Shown here in pieces: positions 1-24,270 of a stretch of 26,183 nucleotides of DNA. Under the pieces are notes generated by a model. The model was given only the letters and a program-made list of their open reading frames with translations. It made no database searches and had not been told where the DNA came from. Numbering within the stretch: position 1 is the stretch's first letter; every line of letters starts with the position of its first letter. Where the stretch lies: positions 1 through 26,183 of the IMG/VR virus record IMGVR_UViG_3300017753_000082, one strand, 5' to 3'. The translations under genes were made by a program, and so were the position numbers. This DNA comes from a virus.

Positions 1-863
1 ATTTTTGCTCTTAATCCACCTGAACCAAATGATACTTTTTTAATTCGTTTGGTTTTGGGATCTCTTACGTAAACGTAATATGCTTTTGAACCACCGCGTT
101 TTGGTTTACCTAATGGTGGATCTTTTTTCTTTTTCTTTGCTTTAGCTTCAAACATTCTTTGATTTGTATCAGCAAATAAAACATATCCATTTCTTCCAAA
201 CATTTTAGTTAGTTCAGTATCTAAACCATCTATATCGCGTTCATTGTCTTCATCATATTGGACAGGAAATCTTGGATCTATATCACTTGGGTAACCAACT
301 TTAACATTAAATCCTTTATCTTTAAGTTTATTTTTGATTTTGATTAAATCTATAAACTTATATTCTTCATTGATAAAAGGAATATCTAAAGCAACATTTT
401 TACCCTCAAATAACCCATATTCACCTACATCAGTACGTTTAATTAAATCTCTATCAAGCTCATTTAATTTTAAAGCACCTTCATTAAATAATTCTCTTGC
501 TTCAGCAAAAAATTCAACATACGCATCTGAACCAATTCTGAAAACGCACTCTGATAATGGTTTTTTATGTGTTTGATGAAATTCTAAACCAGGAGAGGCA
601 TTTACGCCTTCTTGTAGCATAATGCCTTCTGATGTTGGTGCAATTTCTTTTTCTTGAAATGGAGCTATATCTTTAAAGTTAAAAGATTTAGTTGTACCTG
701 TTGTTTCTAATTCTACAGTATAAAAAGGATGCTCTGCCATTGTAACAGTAGCGGTATCACCCTCTACAGTAGTTACTTTATCACCTACAGAAAATTTCGC
801 TGAAACGCCTGCAACATTTTCTATAGCTTCTCGGATTAAATATCTGAGTTTGAGCTGATCCAT
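1..863 (-). CDS. Conserved phage protein with CTS-like N-terminus, SH3-like domain and basic tail (partial, runs off left edge)
   Basis: The frame is open from an ATG at 863 to the window edge (287 codons visible, C-terminus missing). Residues 1-13 (MDQLKLRYLIREA) form a short helix ending in LIRE, like the starts of several neighbours. Residues about 22-68 look like a small SH3/KOW-type beta barrel opening with VGDKV. LQE/G at 83-86 is a possible second processing site. A middle segment (about 95-165) contains DVGEYGLFEGKNVALDIP, which resembles a type of hypothetical protein I recall from T4-like phages. A Lys-rich linker (240-260) leads into a segment with YYVYVRDPKTKRIKKVSFG, which I recall as a recurring C-terminal element in marine phage proteins. 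Function is unknown. The start lies 6 nt after the stop of the Cys-rich peptide gene, so the two are probably on one transcript. Being in the virion is an inference from the N-terminus only. Confidence 0.85.
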   Translation of the reverse strand, partial: MDQLKLRYLIREAIENVAGVSAKFSVGDKVTTVEGDTATVTMAEHPFYTVELETTGTTKSFNFKDIAPFQEKEIAPTSEGIMLQEGVNASPGLEFHQTHKKPLSECVFRIGSDAYVEFFAEARELFNEGALKLNELDRDLIKRTDVGEYGLFEGKNVALDIPFINEEYKFIDLIKIKNKLKDKGFNVKVGYPSDIDPRFPVQYDEDNERDIDGLDTELTKMFGRNGYVLFADTNQRMFEAKAKKKKKDPPLGKPKRGGSKAYYVYVRDPKTKRIKKVSFGSGGLRAK

Positions 864-869
864 AAATTA

Positions 870-929
870 TTATTTGTTACAACCACAGTCACATGAAGTG
901 CCACAGTCGCATTCTTTACAATTACACAT
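870..929 (-). CDS. 19-residue cysteine-rich, metallothionein-like micropeptide
   Basis: This 20-codon frame runs from ATG at 929 to TAA at 870 and encodes MCNCKECDCGTSCDCGCNK. Seven of 19 residues are cysteine, spaced CxC-x2-CxC-x3-CxCxC. The remaining residues are mostly Lys, Asp, Glu, Asn, Gly, Thr and Ser, with no aromatic or bulky hydrophobic residue except Met1. That composition is typical of metallothionein metal-binding clusters and unlike a folded domain. It fills the gap between two genes exactly: its start is 2 nt after one stop and its stop is 6 nt before the next start. That spacing matches the rest of the operon and argues that it is a real gene. The likely role is binding Zn, Cu or Cd ions in the infected cell or the virion, but this is inference. 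It could instead be a chance frame; its length alone proves nothing. Confidence 0.6.
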   Translation of the reverse strand: MCNCKECDCGTSCDCGCNK

Positions 930-931
930 AA

Positions 932-1564
932 TTACTTATCTTCTTTTTCGTCTTTTTTATCATCTTTTTCGTCTTCTTTTTTAGATTTTTTAGATGATTT
1001 TTTTTCAAAGCGTAAACCTTCTTTTTCTAATGCCTCACGTAATTTATCCATTTGCATTTCTAGCATAGATAATTTTTCCATTAAACCATTAGATTCAGAT
1101 GTAAGGGCTTCACGCATGTCTGGATTAGAAGTTGCTTCAGACATTTTACCTTCGATTTGTTTTTTAATTTCGTCAATTGAAGTTTCCATTGTCTTAAGTT
1201 TATCTTGACCTTTTTTATAGGTTTCCTTAAGTTTAATGTCTCTTTCTTTAATCATTTTATTTGCTGCTGATTTTGCTTTACCTTCAGATTTATAAATACC
1301 TGAAATGTCTTCACGAGTTAAACCACTCATAGCAAATTCAAATACGTCTCCACTTTTTATTAGTTCTTCAACAGAAGATTCTTTAGTGGGTTTTGTAACG
1401 TAATAAAATTCAGCGATTTGGTCTTCGATTTTTGCTACTTTTTCTTTTACAGGTACTTTTTCTGTATAAGCCATATCACCACTGTCGGCTTCTGTAGTAG
1501 CTCGTTCAGATAACCAGTCAGTAATATTTTCTTTGATAAGTTTTTTAAGTTCTGTGCGTTTCAT
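932..1564 (-). CDS. Coiled-coil, Lys/Glu-rich protein with CTS-like N-terminus
   Basis: A 210-aa protein starting at ATG 1564. It opens with MKRTELKKLIKEN, a short amphipathic helix ending LIKE at residue 12, shared in pattern with other proteins here. Residues about 95-180 are rich in Lys, Glu, Leu and Met with heptad-like spacing (for example SNGLMEKLSMLEMQMDKLRE) and should form a coiled coil. The last 25 residues are almost only Lys, Asp, Glu and Ser. The family is not recognised. Size, charge and coiled coil would suit a scaffold, internal core or DNA-associated protein, but no specific family motif is visible. A 37-nt spacer with a promoter-like ATATTTAT lies before it, so it may begin its own transcript. 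The next two downstream genes follow within 2 and 6 nt. Confidence 0.85.
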   Translation of the reverse strand: MKRTELKKLIKENITDWLSERATTEADSGDMAYTEKVPVKEKVAKIEDQIAEFYYVTKPTKESSVEELIKSGDVFEFAMSGLTREDISGIYKSEGKAKSAANKMIKERDIKLKETYKKGQDKLKTMETSIDEIKKQIEGKMSEATSNPDMREALTSESNGLMEKLSMLEMQMDKLREALEKEGLRFEKKSSKKSKKEDEKDDKKDEKEDK

Positions 1565-1584
1565 GTGTGTAGTGTTTTACTATA

Positions 1585-1592
1585 ATAAATAT
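1585..1592 (-). promoter_or_regulatory. Candidate phage promoter element (ATATTTAT)
   Basis: On the coding strand the 37-nt spacer reads TATATATTTATTATAG, and the ATATTTAT core ends 20 nt before the ATG at 1564. The same core occurs in the other three spacers of 28 nt or more. T4 late promoters have a single TATAAATA box, and this could be a diverged equivalent. The sequence is very AT-rich, so chance is possible. Confidence 0.4.
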
Positions 1593-1601
1593 ATAAAGAT
1601 A

Positions 1602-2174
1602 TTATAATTCTAACTCTTTTAATTGTTTAATATTTTCTTTTAATGTTTTAATTACTTCAGGGTTTATCTTAGCTTTTGACCAATTTTCTATATCTCCTGC
1701 TTCAGACATAAAATTGTCACCTTTATCATCTAAAAAAGCATCTACAGCCTGTTCATAATCCATAACAAATGAATTTTTATTAGCATTCATTAATTTAGAT
1801 GCATATTCTTTATACCCACCTGTAGCTTTTAAATGTGTTTCGTGTTCTATTACACAGTTAAAACATTTACCATGAATAGTCCACATTTTTTTGTTTAATT
1901 TAGTGGGTTTCATGGGCTTATTACAACCACATTTTAAAGGAAACTTAACCATTTCCCTTAATTTATCATGTTTAGTAATAGTTTGTTTTAAACTATTTTT
2001 AATAGTCCAGGTTTTACCATTTTCCTCCCATATATCCCCCTCACTATATTCTTTCTTTTGTTGTTCAAAACCAGTTTGAACCCTAGTACGGTCCGCTGTG
2101 TTTCCCGAAACTATATTTCTCATTCGCTTAATATCGCGTTCAGAAAATTCTTTATTTAAACGTGATTTACTCAT
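1602..2174 (-). CDS. Conserved T4-like phage hypothetical with zinc-finger-like cysteines
   Basis: A 190-aa soluble protein. The N-terminal stretch FSERDIKRMRNIVSG (residues 10-24) followed by T-x-V-Q-T-G-F resembles a conserved hypothetical of marine T4-like phages that I recall only as unnamed. A cysteine cluster at about 82-107 (CGC, then KCFNC) probably binds one zinc ion, with His or Cys ligands such as those in WTIHGKCFNCVIEHETH. The C-terminal third is helical and charged. It overlaps the upstream HAD gene by 4 nt (ATGA) and so is probably translationally coupled to it. No enzymatic motif is visible. Unlike its neighbours it lacks the LI-x-E N-terminal helix. Function is unknown; a nucleic-acid-binding or assembly role is only a guess. 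Confidence 0.85.
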   Translation of the reverse strand: MSKSRLNKEFSERDIKRMRNIVSGNTADRTRVQTGFEQQKKEYSEGDIWEENGKTWTIKNSLKQTITKHDKLREMVKFPLKCGCNKPMKPTKLNKKMWTIHGKCFNCVIEHETHLKATGGYKEYASKLMNANKNSFVMDYEQAVDAFLDDKGDNFMSEAGDIENWSKAKINPEVIKTLKENIKQLKELEL

Positions 2175-2722
2175 AAACCTAATTTAGATAACTCGTTTGT
2201 AACTTGTTCTGTTGATTTATATAAAATTCCAATTCCTCCTGCAGCTTTCCAAGCAGCAATGTTATCTGATCTATCATCTATTAATATTTTATTTGGTCCT
2301 GCATATTTTGCTTTGCCAGATGCTTTAAAACCAAATTTATATGGTGTACCAGACATATTTCTTTTAATCCATACACCTTTTCCTATACGAGATGATTCTT
2401 CTCTAGAAGGTGAAGTTAAAATAGTTGGTTTATATTTTTTAAGGTATTTGTATAATTTTTCTCCTTCAGGCATCCATGGCATTCCTGCCCAAAAACGAAC
2501 TCCAATTTGTTTATCTATAAGATCCCAAAATTGTTCGTTTGCTTTATCTTTTCCAAATTGAATAGTCTTTTGATCTATATATTCATCTGGTGTAACACCA
2601 GCAAACTGTTCAAAACGTCTTTCAAAGTCAGTTAAGACACCATCCATGTCAACGAAGACTTCATATGCTTTTGCAAGATCTTCTTGCAATAAATCCATTA
2701 AACTTCCTTTTATTCTATTCAT
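2171..2722 (-). CDS. HAD-superfamily phosphatase, 5'-nucleotidase-like
   Basis: HAD hydrolase motifs are clear (numbered from the ATG at 2722). Motif I is VDMDGVLTD at about residues 24-32, with both nucleophile and acid-base Asp. Motif II is the Thr-Ser of ILTSPSR (about 103). A conserved Lys follows (WIKRN, about 120), and motif IV is LIDDRSDN (about 148-155). Size and motif spacing fit the 5'(3')-deoxyribonucleotidase-like branch, which removes phosphate from nucleotides, although substrate cannot be read from sequence. Start choice: the longest frame begins with TTG at 2746, but ATG at 2722 gives an 8-nt overlap with the upstream stop, as in two other gene pairs here, and yields a MNRIKGSLMDLLQE start resembling the neighbouring CTS-like helices. 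A third option is ATG at 2698, which has a chance or real AAGGA before it. Confidence 0.85.
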   Translation of the reverse strand: MNRIKGSLMDLLQEDLAKAYEVFVDMDGVLTDFERRFEQFAGVTPDEYIDQKTIQFGKDKANEQFWDLIDKQIGVRFWAGMPWMPEGEKLYKYLKKYKPTILTSPSREESSRIGKGVWIKRNMSGTPYKFGFKASGKAKYAGPNKILIDDRSDNIAAWKAAGGIGILYKSTEQVTNELSKLGL

Positions 2723-4106
2723 ATATGTGTGGATTTTCACGTCCAAATTTTCTCATTATAACTGCTGCTAATGAATTAGCTTCATTTTCATCTGGTGATC
2801 CATCTTCACCTGAAGTTGGTGTTAACCTATCATCTAGATTTTGCATATGGTGAACCATCTCGTGTGCTACAGTTCTTAATATATCAGCCATATTACGATT
2901 ATGAACTACAACCATTATTTTTTCTTCTGAAGGTAGGTATCCTCCAAAACTATGATATTCCTGAGTGTAATCAGGGGAGTTTATTAGTTTAATTTTGGGT
3001 TTATTTATAGAAAGATATTCGCTAACATAATTTACAAAATCTCCTATTACTTTACCTTTTGAACTATCCCAACCTTCATTTAGGAATTTTTTATATCTAG
3101 CTTCTTGTAGATATCTGTCTTCTTTTTTCATACGTTGAGTTTTTCTTTTAGAAGCCTCTTTACGTTGTTTAATATATTTAAAAGCAGATTTTAATTTAGC
3201 TTTTTTTAATGGATCTTTAGTTCTACCTAAAGCTGCTCTTACTCTTTGATGTATTAAATTTATTACCTGAGATTTTCTAGCATGGGATTTATTTTTAAAA
3301 GTAGTTTTATTTAATGTATCTACTATATCCTGTCTAGTACTAAATTTTATTTTTACTGTATCACTAGGATCTTCATCAGTATATAATCTACGTCCTGATC
3401 CTTTAGGTTTTTTACCTGTACCTTTTTTAGGTTCAGCTTCATTTAAAGGAGTATTATCATGTCCACATTTATGACAGATGTATAAATCATCTCCACCATC
3501 TACTATTTTCCATTCCCACCCACAATTATCGCATACAATTTTATCGCCTACTATAGCTTCGTTTAATTGAAATATAGACATAAAATCATCTACATTAATA
3601 CCATCAGGTATAAATTCAGATATAGTTTCTAAATCGTTATCGCGTATTGCTTTACGTAAATCAGTGGCTGAATATGTACCTTCCATTCCAGCATCAAATA
3701 CCTCTACATGGGGATATTTTTCTTTATCTAATAGTGATTGGAAGCGTTCTTGTTCTCCTTTACCAAATACCGCTCTTATATCATGAGATGGATTATCCTT
3801 AGCATAATCATATACTGCTTTAACAGGTACAGGTGTTTGAATAATTTCTACTTTTTCAAGTTCTGGGTTATTTTGTTTATATAAATCCCAAACTTGTTGA
3901 GCTTCTTCTACAGAAACACCATCACGTTCTTTAGTAGACATAAAGATAATAACACGATCTGTTTTATCATCTATAGCTTTTAAAGCTGTAGCAACATGTC
4001 CTTTATGTGGTGGTTTAAATGCACCAGGATATAAAGATACCTTTTCAGTAAATTGCTCTACTAATAGACTTTTTGCTATTTGATTACCTATTCTTTCGGG
4101 ATTCAT
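2715..4106 (-). CDS. Nucleotidyltransferase / zinc ribbon / zinc metallopeptidase-like fusion with prohead-protease-like sites
   Basis: A 463-aa multidomain protein. Residues about 20-170 are a cytidylyltransferase-like (NMN/pantetheine-phosphate adenylyltransferase) Rossmann domain, with YPGAFKPPHKGH (HxGH at 34-37) and the second nucleotide-binding motif YSATDLRKAI (145-154). Residues 192-214 are a zinc ribbon (CxxC...CxxC). Residues about 245-330 are very basic and helical. Residues about 350-463 hold a zincin-like domain with HEMVH (415-419) and a downstream ENEAN whose Glu could be the third zinc ligand. L-(N/Q)-E followed by A or G occurs at 181-184, 221-224, 333-336 and 342-345, at or near the domain borders. 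The N-terminus contains SLLVEQ (13-18). The start overlaps the kinase gene stop by 4 nt (ATGA). The enzymatic substrate is unknown; NAD+ or coenzyme metabolism is plausible for the first domain. Confidence 0.85.
   Translation of the reverse strand: MNPERIGNQIAKSLLVEQFTEKVSLYPGAFKPPHKGHVATALKAIDDKTDRVIIFMSTKERDGVSVEEAQQVWDLYKQNNPELEKVEIIQTPVPVKAVYDYAKDNPSHDIRAVFGKGEQERFQSLLDKEKYPHVEVFDAGMEGTYSATDLRKAIRDNDLETISEFIPDGINVDDFMSIFQLNEAIVGDKIVCDNCGWEWKIVDGGDDLYICHKCGHDNTPLNEAEPKKGTGKKPKGSGRRLYTDEDPSDTVKIKFSTRQDIVDTLNKTTFKNKSHARKSQVINLIHQRVRAALGRTKDPLKKAKLKSAFKYIKQRKEASKRKTQRMKKEDRYLQEARYKKFLNEGWDSSKGKVIGDFVNYVSEYLSINKPKIKLINSPDYTQEYHSFGGYLPSEEKIMVVVHNRNMADILRTVAHEMVHHMQNLDDRLTPTSGEDGSPDENEANSLAAVIMRKFGRENPHIYE
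3075..3565 (-). other. Cluster of candidate prohead-protease cleavage sites between domains of the 463-aa protein
   Basis: Residues 181-345 of the fusion protein contain four L-(N/Q)-E/(A or G) sites: LNE/A (183/184), LNE/A (223/224), LQE/A (335/336) and LNE/G (344/345). They follow the transferase domain, follow the zinc ribbon, and precede the zincin domain (two close together). The T4 gp21 prohead protease prefers (L/I)-x-E before the cut, often followed by Ala or Gly. The positions are read directly; cleavage is inference. Confidence 0.4.
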
Positions 4107-4903
4107 GCGAAAAATGAGTTTACTCGAGATTTAGCTTCATCTTTAGAAACTGAATTCGCCTTAATGTCTTCTACTTTATCTGAACTTACAAAATCGTTTA
4201 TTTGTTTTTCTAATTCAGCTTTAGATTTTTCAGAACGTGCCTTTTCTTTATCTGTTTTAGGCTTAGTATCAGTTGGAGCATAAGGTGTAAGGTATTTATC
4301 TACTAAATCCTTTAAAGGTTTCATAGATCCTCCTTTTTCTAATGCTTTATCGTTTACAACAGATACAAAATTGCTTCCAAATTCATCTTTGTATAAATCG
4401 TAATTTTGTGTAATGTTATTCCATGTACGTAATACAATAGCAGGTGCTAAACTTCTATCTTTCCCACCTGAACGGTCAAATCGTGTATCATTTCGTTCTA
4501 GTGCTTTTTCTAGTGAAGCAAATACATATACCATCAAGACATCGTATCCTAAATCTTCTAATTCCTTCTTTAATTTTAAAGTAGGACCAGAAGAAGCAGC
4601 AGGACCATCCAAGATAAAATTCTTTTTACCTAAGATAATTTCACGTGTCATTGGGCGAAATTCCTTATTAGCTGCAGCCATTGCTTTAGCTGCCTTGCTT
4701 CTATCTTCAGCATTAGCATTTTTTAAATCTAAAGATACATTTAAATCTTTTAGATTGCGCATATATGCATCGTCTACATTTAAGATTAAAGCATCTTTTA
4801 CATTTTCTATAAATGAAGATTTACCAGCTCCAGGAGAACCAGCGAGGATAAGTGCCTTTGGATTAGCGGATTGTTCTAAAATTATATCTCGTAGTTTATA
4901 CAT
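4103..4903 (-). CDS. P-loop kinase, zeta-toxin / polynucleotide-kinase-like
   Basis: A 266-aa protein. Walker A is AGSPGAGKSS (residues 21-30), preceded by a hydrophobic strand (KALIL). LNVDD (about 41-45) supplies the acidic residues expected after the first strand of the zeta-toxin/P-loop kinase fold. FILDGPAAS (about 96-104) is a later core strand, and ERNDTRFDRSGGKDR (about 134-148) looks like the Arg-rich lid that clamps the phosphate donor. Zeta toxins phosphorylate UDP-N-acetylglucosamine; related phage kinases act on polynucleotides, and the substrate here is unknown. No antitoxin-like partner is adjacent. The first residues (MYKLRDIILEQ) form a CTS-like helix ending in ILE at residue 10. 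The C-terminal 60 residues are a charged Lys/Glu/Ser tail. A 51-nt spacer with a promoter-like element lies upstream, so this may be the first gene of the region 4 operon. Confidence 0.85.
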   Translation of the reverse strand: MYKLRDIILEQSANPKALILAGSPGAGKSSFIENVKDALILNVDDAYMRNLKDLNVSLDLKNANAEDRSKAAKAMAAANKEFRPMTREIILGKKNFILDGPAASSGPTLKLKKELEDLGYDVLMVYVFASLEKALERNDTRFDRSGGKDRSLAPAIVLRTWNNITQNYDLYKDEFGSNFVSVVNDKALEKGGSMKPLKDLVDKYLTPYAPTDTKPKTDKEKARSEKSKAELEKQINDFVSSDKVEDIKANSVSKDEAKSRVNSFFA

Positions 4904-6853: not shown

Positions 6854-7273
6854 TTAAATGTTTGGGTTGACCAAGTCTTTTCTAAAAAACTTTCCTAAGA
6901 TATTATCGTTTATATATTCTGTATTTTCAAGTACATTATTACAGAATTGATATTTTGTTTCTAGATATGTAAGGTGTTTTTTGTTAAATGCAAATTCTAA
7001 TACTTCACGTGTAAAATCTTCTTGTTTACCTTCTGATAGTAATTGTTTGATCTTAGTGTGTGAACCATAATAAGTTTGCCAGTCACTTTCTTTAACTACT
7101 TTACGTTTACGTTTAGCACCTTTTAAAGGTGGTAAAGTACGATTAAAAAATAGTACCTTTTTACCTAAATATTTTTCTTTAGTTGGAATAAAAGTAGCTT
7201 CATAAATAAAACCAAATGTATTTTCGGGCATCTCTTCGATGCTCCCTATAACCTCTCCTTTATATAACCACAT
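6854..7273 (-). CDS. GIY-YIG-like putative nuclease
   Basis: A 139-aa protein. GFIYEAT (21-27) and KYLGKK (34-39) match the paired GIY and YIG strands. ESDWQTYYGS (62-71), an Arg at 89 in FTREVLEF, and Glu105 in YLETKYQF follow in the order expected for the helix residues and the metal-binding Glu. T4-like phages carry many such proteins, including Seg homing endonucleases and uncharacterised short relatives. A basic loop (KGAKRKRKVVK, 51-61) fits DNA binding. No separate DNA-recognition domain is present, so it is probably a compact nuclease and not a full homing enzyme. It follows the 101-aa structural gene by 9 nt. Confidence 0.75.
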   Translation of the reverse strand: MWLYKGEVIGSIEEMPENTFGFIYEATFIPTKEKYLGKKVLFFNRTLPPLKGAKRKRKVVKESDWQTYYGSHTKIKQLLSEGKQEDFTREVLEFAFNKKHLTYLETKYQFCNNVLENTEYINDNILGKFFRKDLVNPNI

Positions 7274-23382: not shown

Positions 23383-23788
23383 TGTTTATATTTATTTGAA
23401 GTTCATCTTCAATATTAGTATTAGCTAAAGAATAATTTAAAGCTATTATAGTAGTATTACTTTGTTGTTCTAATTGTACAGTTAAATTATTTACAATAAC
23501 GTTTGGAAAAAATGTATCAATTCCATTTATAATTAAGTTTTCAACCTCTTCTACTAAATTTTCAGTTAAAGGGTTAAAAATTACATCTCGTAACCCTGAT
23601 CCAAACCCAGGATTCATTATTCTTTCTCGTTTACCTGTTAAAAGAAAATTAAGTAAATTAGATTTAATTGCATCTTGAGTAGTATAAGTTGTATTAATAC
23701 CAGTAGCTCCATTAAAAGGAATACTAATACCTACTCCTACACTAGGTTGCAAGTCTAAAATATCAACGTTACGTGTTATATATGCCAT
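23369..23788 (-). CDS. 25: Baseplate wedge protein gp25-like
   Basis: A 139-aa protein, near T4 gp25 (132 aa). The family signature is at residues 47-75: NFLLTGKRERIMNPGFGSGL followed by RDVIFNPLTENL. It corresponds to the G-E-R-x-x-x-P-x-F-G-x-x-L-x-x-x-x-F pattern of gp25 and its relatives in contractile injection systems. In those systems the protein anchors sheath assembly to the wedge. It is called lysozyme-like by Pfam but has no lysozyme activity. It overlaps the gp6 gene by 14 nt and shares a TAATG junction with the upstream gene. Together with gp6 it firmly marks a contractile tail. Confidence 0.93.
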   Translation of the reverse strand: MAYITRNVDILDLQPSVGVGISIPFNGATGINTTYTTQDAIKSNLLNFLLTGKRERIMNPGFGSGLRDVIFNPLTENLVEEVENLIINGIDTFFPNVIVNNLTVQLEQQSNTTIIALNYSLANTNIEDELQININNGGV

Positions 23789-24270
23789 TATATTTTACCG
23801 TCTTGTTTCATTTTACCCATTAATCCAGAAAAATCAGGAACAGCATCAATTGATACTTGATTTATATCTGATGTTTTAGGTTGTGAGGCTACCATTTCAT
23901 CTACAGAATTAACTGTTTTAGTTTCACCTCCAGGCATTCCGCCTTGGAAACCAACAGCGTTTTGTGCTGTCATAGTTCCTCCATTCATATCTCTCCATCC
24001 ACCTTCAACATGTGTTTGATTTAGGATATCAGATATAGCACCTGCTCCTTCAAATAAAGGTTGAGTTGGTTGTGGGGGTTGTTGTGGAGTAGTAGGTTGT
24101 ACTGTCTCTGTTAATTCAGATAGTGATTTTCTTGGTGTTTTTTGTTCTACAACCGGCTTCTGAATTATTTTAGTTTCGGTAATAGGAGTACTCATAATTA
24201 AAGAAAGTTCTTCCTTAATTACGTCTCTTACCTCTTCTCGAATGATTTTTCTAAAAGCTTCTATTTTCAT
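23788..24270 (-). CDS. Pro/Gln/Gly-rich protein with CTS-like N-terminus, 160 aa
   Basis: The protein begins MKIEAFRKIIREEVRDVIKEEL, a strongly amphipathic helix ending its first half with IIRE at residue 12, like the N-termini of several region 4 proteins. Residues 55-72 are a Pro/Gln/Thr linker, followed by PLFE/GAGA (71-78), another candidate gp21-type site. The rest is Gly/Met/Asn-rich and probably flexible, ending VPDFSGLMGKMKQDGKI. There is no recognised domain. It sits directly before gp25 with a TAATG junction, so it may be a baseplate or hub assembly part. The N-terminal helix alternatively suggests a capsid-directed or chaperone-like protein. A short AT-rich spacer precedes it. The function is unknown. 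Confidence 0.8.
   Translation of the reverse strand: MKIEAFRKIIREEVRDVIKEELSLIMSTPITETKIIQKPVVEQKTPRKSLSELTETVQPTTPQQPPQPTQPLFEGAGAISDILNQTHVEGGWRDMNGGTMTAQNAVGFQGGMPGGETKTVNSVDEMVASQPKTSDINQVSIDAVPDFSGLMGKMKQDGKI

Follow-up and report, generated by a model that had tools for sequence, protein, structure and literature searches.

The window analysed here is the whole 26,183-nt stretch of IMG/VR record IMGVR_UViG_3300017753_000082, a fragment of a T4-like myovirus, in which six otherwise dissimilar proteins begin with short, related N-terminal peptides ending in (L/I)-x-E. We consider these shared N-termini to be capsid-targeting propeptides cut by the S77 (gp21-like) prohead protease of the phage, after which the trimmed cargo would be ejected with the DNA, and we place the probability of this reading at roughly 0.8. 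The system seems to be expanded in these T4-like phages, with three classes of tag on dozens of unrelated proteins. One class is a copy of the C-terminal peptide of the scaffold itself, and some of the cargo would be made as polyprotein, from which cuts at the domain junctions release the individual enzymes. An earlier note on this DNA had pointed out the six N-termini and proposed that they direct the proteins into the prohead to be trimmed and injected. Its observation is confirmed and is far larger in scale than first reported, and its interpretation is supported.

All six N-termini are present in the window as the earlier note gave them, and all carry h..h[LI]xE (h, hydrophobic residue) or a close variant. 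They are listed below with an untagged gene of the same cluster.

828–863, minus strand: class A tag MDQLKLRYLIRE of the protein encoded at 3–863, whose gene is cut off by the window end.
1529–1564, minus strand: class A tag MKRTELKKLIKE of the coiled-coil protein at 932–1564.
1602–2174, minus strand: untagged conserved gene, serving as an internal negative control.
2681–2722, minus strand: tag MNRIKGSLMDLLQE of the HAD/NT5C-type nucleotidase at 2171–2722, with its ATG at 2722.
4056–4106, minus strand: tag MNPERIGNQIAKSLLVE, with SLLVE at residues 13–17, of the fusion protein at 2715–4106.
4874–4903, minus strand: tag MYKLRDIILE, with Glu at 10 like T4 IPIII, of the zeta-toxin-like P-loop kinase at 4103–4903.
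24235–24270, minus strand: class A tag MKIEAFRKIIRE of the small protein at 23788–24270 beside gp25; the small protein starts MKIEAFRKIIREEV.

Glu occupies position 12 in the proteins starting at 863, 1564 and 24270, as had been stated, and past residue 25 the six proteins share nothing significant (best blastp E 0.027). The fusion protein, with IAKSLLVE and Ala at P7, lies outside the strict pattern and keeps L-V-E; its tag is predicted to form a helix at residues 3–16 that stops at LVE17. In the kinase (Pfam Zeta_toxin, E 2.9e-13), the HAD nucleotidase and the adenylyltransferase, the first strand starts about 4–7 residues past the tag Glu. The match of the nucleotidase to phrog_2643 (E 1.8e-26) begins only at residue 26 of the frame that starts at 2746. 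The small protein beside gp25 has an identical start in relatives G001 and G004 and reads MNLEALRKLIRE in G012.

Three classes of tag can be distinguished: class A, MKxxELRKIIKE with the shorter form MIKLxDLLxE; class B, M..FDLKKFLVENKLT..; and class C, (LSE)QFxRMQKLAGIITE. Class C is absent from the six proteins of the window, whose tags belong to class A or its short form. Among 4,850 unique proteins, class A is N-terminal in 42, in the middle of 1 and near the C-terminus of 1, and the 40 occurrences of class B are solely N-terminal.

The closest cultured relative of the window is Flavobacterium phage vB_FspM_immuto (hereafter immuto), with a gp6 45% identical. IMG/VR record G004 (166 kb) is colinear with the window, matching 90% of it at 75% nucleotide identity, and is thus the best stand-in for the part of the genome outside the window. 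Most relatives are metagenomic. Gene calls came from a simple script that takes the longest ATG frames with limited overlap and so may overlook some true starts. The motif h..h[LI].E was derived from T4 IPIII, which has hydrophobic residues at 4 and 7, Ile at 8 and Glu at 10, and was fixed before counting; in IPIII, residues 4 and 7 serve targeting, residues 8 and 10 are required for cleavage, and the cut falls after L/I-x-E (PMC9026906). It was sought in the first 22 residues, and expected counts were taken from all internal sequence windows of the same proteins. Four of the 20 complete proteins of the window carry the motif, against 0.6 expected (Poisson P 0.004, falling to 0.0006 when the truncated gene at 863 is counted too). 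Single relatives showed a 2.5- to 11-fold excess, and four flavophages without an S77 protease 0.7- to 1.6-fold.

When each protein family was given one vote, with families joined on residues 31 onward, 61.6 of 519 families in ten relatives plus the window were tagged against 12.8 expected (z 15.5). The four S77-negative flavophages gave 7.5 against 5.6 in 308 families, which is no enrichment. T4 itself gave 11.8 against 3.4 in 197 families and recovered known gp21 substrates; its matches comprise MKTYQEFIAE twice and N-termini at the positions of genes that we take to be Alt (MMELITE), gp24 and gp68. Since the relatives had been found via a tagged gene, the test was repeated on 78 loci picked solely by their S77 protease, where 26.2 of 149 families were tagged against 3.9 expected (z 13.4). 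Across families, the Glu lies mostly at position 12 (22 families) or 10 (11 families). At P2, P5, P6 and P8, which the pattern leaves free, the matches show a K/R/E bias relative to internal chance matches, P2, P5 and P6 being K/R-rich.

K- and L-rich starts with a Glu might simply be common in AT-rich phages. Within the first 22 residues, the loose [LI].E indeed discriminates poorly and is hardly enriched in several genomes (immuto, 54 against 54.6). Against an origin by composition, the motif set in advance from T4 gives the z values above, both by family and in the protease-chosen loci, and S77-negative flavophages of similar GC content show no excess. We regard chance as a highly improbable explanation.

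The tags are also conserved. When homologous N-termini were aligned, as the earlier note had suggested, [LI]xE stayed while other residues varied. Counting [LI].E within the first 24 residues of distinct homologous N-termini, we found it in 23 of 23 for the HAD nucleotidase, 13 of 14 for the coiled-coil protein, 16 of 18 for the 863 family (G001 and G004 read MDKLKLRYLIRE) and 20 of 25 for the adenylyltransferase-type fusion protein. All nine distinct full-length kinase N-termini carry the full h..h[LI].E, in starts such as MYKLRDIILE, MIKLYDLLME, MISLMQLLKE, MVSLLRLLNE, MIKLSTLLKE, MISLVQLLTE, MIGLMSLLKE and MIKLLELLKE. The untagged gene at 1602–2174, as well conserved as its tagged neighbours, has [LI].E in 1 of 23. 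Its start, LxKEFxxxDVxRMRNLIxGK, is faintly class C-like and holds no [LI]xE.

Such repeated starts could also stem from a recently copied 5′ DNA cassette, for instance at a recombination hot spot, with no function at the protein level. A few adjacent copies, in G017 (146–148 kb) and G011 (63–64 kb), are near-identical in DNA, as this would predict. Codon identity at identical residues of the tag copies is near the genome expectation in G011 (0.71 against 0.70) and modestly above it in G014 and G017 (0.73–0.76 against 0.62), so recent DNA copying accounts for a few neighbours only. Orthologous enzymes, moreover, differ in residues yet follow the same pattern. Given the codon divergence in most copies, we mostly rejected a cassette origin and give it a negligible chance.

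The earlier note had made its interpretation depend on a gp21-like protease in the genome. A PF03420 profile search of the record of the window, a 26-kb fragment, gave no match. The colinear G004 encodes an S77 prohead protease (E 1.9e-32), as does immuto (gp070, E 6.9e-36), in whose record it is annotated as prohead protease. The enzyme was found in every near-complete relative examined (immuto, G004, G014 and G017) and in the fragments G011, G013 and G019; its Pfam score exceeds the cut-off, and the His and Ser motifs, GELDHP and G[IV]SSRG, are conserved. Six aligned proteases have one or two short sites close to the N-terminus: four have LLIE or VLIE, and all six have L(T/K/S)E or ITE with G or S as the next residue. 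Near the C-terminus, LNE/S or LNE/G is present in most (a slash marks the predicted cut). T4 gp21 itself has an LIE-9 site and is also processed at its C-terminus (PMC9026906).

The earlier note had also suggested looking for the motif on capsid proteins, and [LI]xE occurs in the protease, scaffold and major capsid protein of the relatives at T4-like places; in G004 and immuto, the protease, scaffold and capsid proteins all carry such sites. The major capsid proteins have LFE/G or LLE/S, LLE/G and (I/L)LE/NQAK within the N-terminal 55 residues. In a ranking of proteins by excess of [LI]xE[AGSN], the scaffold, protease and major capsid protein of the relatives are among the richest, as are gp22 and gp23 in T4, where these two take the first and second places; in G004 the scaffold leads and the protease is third.

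A scan with the class C core, MQKLAGI, found it mostly in the last 7–11 residues of one protein, not at N-termini. This protein is an acidic coiled-coil protein encoded between the protease and major capsid protein genes, the position of gp22. The scaffold ends with KPIVE/SNDFVARMQKLAGII in G004, EIISE/VSEQVSRWQKLAGIIK in immuto and VINE/VSETVRRMQKLAGIIK in G013, and all 15 scaffold genes recovered next to a protease gene end in RxxxLA[GN] (RxQxLA[GN] or a close variant), nearly always after [LI]xE. In the set of 4,850 unique proteins, 43 occurrences of class C are N-terminal, 93 are close to the C-terminus and 6 lie at other places. The scanned loci hold 13 proteins, each from a different family, with the core near the N-terminus, and in 11 of them [LI]xE follows directly. 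A few proteins (L285, L288, L351 and G015 69277) begin with class A and end with class C. The G004 scaffold holds seven [LI]xE[AGSN] sites against 1.9 expected. Its AlphaFold2 model (mean pLDDT, predicted local distance difference test, of 59, usable for gross layout only) has long helices, a disordered segment at 348–366, the IVE372 site and a separate terminal helix at 374–384. This identity of the class C tag with the scaffold C-terminus is absent from the earlier note and goes beyond its finding. The terminal peptide of the scaffold is presumably a docking peptide, later freed by the protease, which class C cargo copies. The class C peptide was not found in open-licence PubMed Central papers, an absence that is no proof of novelty.

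These data also bear on the possibility that the N-terminal helix binds something else in the infected cell, whether the host membrane, a host enzyme or a phage complex, (L/I)-x-E being incidental. In favour of such a role, the helix appears amphipathic and basic. Opposed to this are the lack of enrichment in flavophages without S77, the match between class C and the terminal peptide of the scaffold, and the retention of [LI]xE despite changes elsewhere, together with its recurrence at internal domain junctions described below. We judge this explanation to be improbable.

[LI]xE sites also lie inside the fusion protein, where the earlier note missed them; they follow the domain organization of the protein:

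2715–4106, minus strand: fusion protein, comprising a nicotinic acid/nicotinamide mononucleotide (NaMN/NMN) adenylyltransferase fold (residues 18–182), a Zn-ribbon (186–222), a basic module (224–334) and an HExxH peptidase (345–463).
3558–3566, minus strand: junction LNE183/A between nucleotidyltransferase and Zn-ribbon, within the pLDDT<50 segment 181–187.
3438–3446, minus strand: junction LNE223/A between Zn-ribbon and basic module, within the pLDDT<50 segment 220–235.
3075–3110, minus strand: junctions LQE335/A and LNE344/G before the HExxH peptidase module, within the pLDDT<50 segment 328–346.

The fusion protein matches phrog_395, and its first domain matches 8aih in Foldseek (E 1.2e-5). 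After LVE17 in the tag, [LI]xE occurs at all three domain junctions; the remaining sites are IYE463 at the chain end and ISE164, the sole one inside a domain. In the AlphaFold2 model (mean pLDDT 74), the linkers that hold the junction sites are predicted to be disordered; the other segments below 50, residues 202–207 and 237–245, hold no site.

Relatives have the modules in altered arrangements (dropped, reordered or mixed with other modules), in proteins that range from about 320 to 1,390 residues. G004 has lost the basic module and L005 both the Zn-ribbon and the basic module, each loss lying directly before the YLxE/ARYKKFLNE/G junction. In G011 and G014 the basic module leads short proteins behind its own tag (MIKLVDILKEITE/GDPKVGTGKK). 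In L021, L054 and G014 the polyprotein includes the HAD domain, which in the window is a separate, tagged protein. In all 13 distinct upstream contexts of the adenylyltransferase domain, an [LI]xE stands among the 12 preceding residues (2.1 expected); this holds for the basic module in 19 of 23 distinct contexts (3.3), for the peptidase in 14 of 19 (2.9) and for the Zn-ribbon in 9 of 15 (2.3). Among the 13 residues that follow the Zn-ribbon, an [LI]xE is present in 15 of 15 (2.5). These sites are partly inherited along with each module, yet the contexts differ. From the junction sites and the shuffled, singly tagged modules, which are as expected for a packaged polyprotein, we infer that the fusion protein would be cargo of this kind. 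As a separate observation, the basic module (window 3105–3437, minus strand, residues 224–334, GTGKKPKGSGRRLYTDE..) reaches about 85% identity between contigs despite the divergence of the other domains. It is part of many different protein architectures and has no PHROG match (E<=1) and no Pfam family above the cut-off.

The tagged proteins could alternatively be components of the prohead core, like T4 gp67 and gp68, that are assembled, shredded and expelled, with no delivery to the host. Several tagged genes are indeed located among the portal, protease and scaffold genes of the head locus (immuto gp072 and gp069; G013 50546), and some tagged proteins hold many [LI]xE sites (G011 64457, 5 against 0.47 expected). 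On the other hand, the kinase, nucleotidase and adenylyltransferase domains retain their catalytic motifs, the interiors of the modules are poor in sites (0.65 per 100 residues in the adenylyltransferase, 0.25 in the basic module) and the predicted cuts fall in linkers, not within domains. A core role is thus unlikely in our estimation, though it is the most plausible of the alternatives.

Several observations weigh against propeptides on packaged cargo. The scaffold is only weakly homologous to T4 gp22 (hhalign E 0.0019, probability 14.5%) and has no match to Pfam T4_CASP, so that its identity rests on position, acidity, coiled-coil prediction and cut-site density. The S77-bearing cyanophage-type genomes S-PM2 and Mel-JY01 are unenriched (10.0 against 7.4 in 355 families), and the protease alone therefore does not predict tags. 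The tagged protein beside gp25 sits within the tail gene block; a tagged counterpart lies beside gp25 at immuto 81525–81944, in the baseplate block. Some motif matches are probably false, such as MIKLIIFDLDGVLVE (HAD motif I) and FSDLLKEI in a tail-locus family. Twenty-one adenylyltransferase proteins, largely from another phage group, begin untagged at Met1, which makes the tag an addition and not part of the fold. Finally, a search of open-licence PubMed Central papers turned up no virion proteomics or neo-N-termini for immuto or its relatives.

Two of these points have companions. The tail-locus family has FGKKxFxDLLKEIHxNQ near its start (G001 37508–37867, G004 73813–74172, immuto 78906–79256 and relatives), which matches the pattern and is probably not a tag. 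Another phage group has untagged giant fusions of adenylyltransferase and basic module, up to about 1,390 residues (G015 56371–59916, L026, L028, L047, L052 and L073).

Taking both sides together, we strongly infer packaging and cleavage of the tagged proteins from their sequences. By analogy with T4, the tag would dock cargo onto the core or inner shell during prohead assembly, and the S77 protease would cut after (L/I)-x-E once the prohead has closed. The cut-off peptides would then leave, the trimmed enzymes would stay with the DNA inside the head, and both would be injected together. Since the tags are common to dozens of unrelated proteins and one type is the end peptide of the scaffold, it is probable that these viruses bring a large cargo of enzymes into the host cell. 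The folds suggest a role in nucleotide and nicotinamide adenine dinucleotide (NAD) chemistry in the host; restoration of NAD by the adenylyltransferase-like domain is speculation.

We consider it somewhat better than an even bet that the whole is a natural enzyme-delivery platform, using removable copies of the scaffold docking peptide (or two further docking peptides), shuffled tagged modules and junction-cut polyproteins, so that one head would deliver a kinase, a nucleotidase, an NMN-adenylyltransferase-like enzyme and a metallopeptidase at infection. In uncultured phages, the tags may help to predict what the virion carries: a protein that begins with any of the three peptides is a candidate injected effector. 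They also suggest a possible binding place for the targeting peptide, the site used by the scaffold C-terminus, and lead us to propose polyprotein cargo matured by the prohead protease. These predictions are directly testable in the cultured phage immuto.

In the window, all genes named here are on the minus strand. The gp25 and gp6-type baseplate genes lie at the right and tail genes in the middle, followed leftward by a GIY-YIG protein, primase, exonuclease and the tagged-gene cluster. Immuto is partly syntenic (baseplate, tail, GIY-YIG, primase, exonuclease, adenylyltransferase and NT5C nucleotidase) and encodes the terminase, portal, prohead protease, scaffold and major capsid protein beyond this block. 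The GIY-YIG protein (6854–7273, minus strand) is SegE-like (Pfam SegE_GIY-YIG, E 5e-27); PHROGs and the immuto record name it 'NAD synthetase', apparently in error. G011 62225–65248 and G017 146358–148412 form cargo islands of about 5–6 adjacent genes each, nearly all beginning with a tag, and should be a useful source of new effectors.

Several known systems resemble the one described here. The crAss-like phages, which infect Bacteroidota, likewise have named capsid cargo proteins (crAss_CARG1); against the corresponding Pfam family, PF25725, only the basic module gave a hit, below threshold (E 0.19, 12.3 bits against a cut-off of 27). In phiKZ and SPN3US, many head proteins lose propeptides after x-x-E through a distant gp21 relative and are then ejected (PMC5694885, PMC9026906). 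Removal of a propeptide after Glu by a gp21-type protease would thus be shared, whereas several of their propeptides are longer than 100 residues, phiKZ has the motif S/A-x-E and a gp22-like scaffold is not confirmed there. In engineered P22 loading, cargo fused to truncated scaffold enters the procapsid via the coat-binding segment (PMC9962691). There, too, cargo bears a scaffold segment, in a laboratory construct without maturation cleavage; here, the arrangement would be natural and cleavable.

The closest system is that of T4, with IPI, IPII, IPIII, Alt and gp21 (PF03420). Alike are the N-terminal peptide of about 10–20 residues with hydrophobics at P4 and P7, the (L/I)-x-E cut site, the S77 protease and the T4-like head gene order. 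Three features of the T4-type system of capsid-targeting sequences (CTS) are found: the N-terminal peptide, the S77 protease (in relatives) and a gp22-type scaffold with cut sites. T4 tags a handful of proteins, whereas dozens of families and three tag classes occur here; the enzymes are not recognisably related to the T4 internal proteins, and polyprotein cargo with internal sites is predicted. T4 gp22, unlike the scaffold here, does not end in a class C-type peptide. The system, as far as sequence tells, is a new variant of the T4 CTS/internal-protein system.

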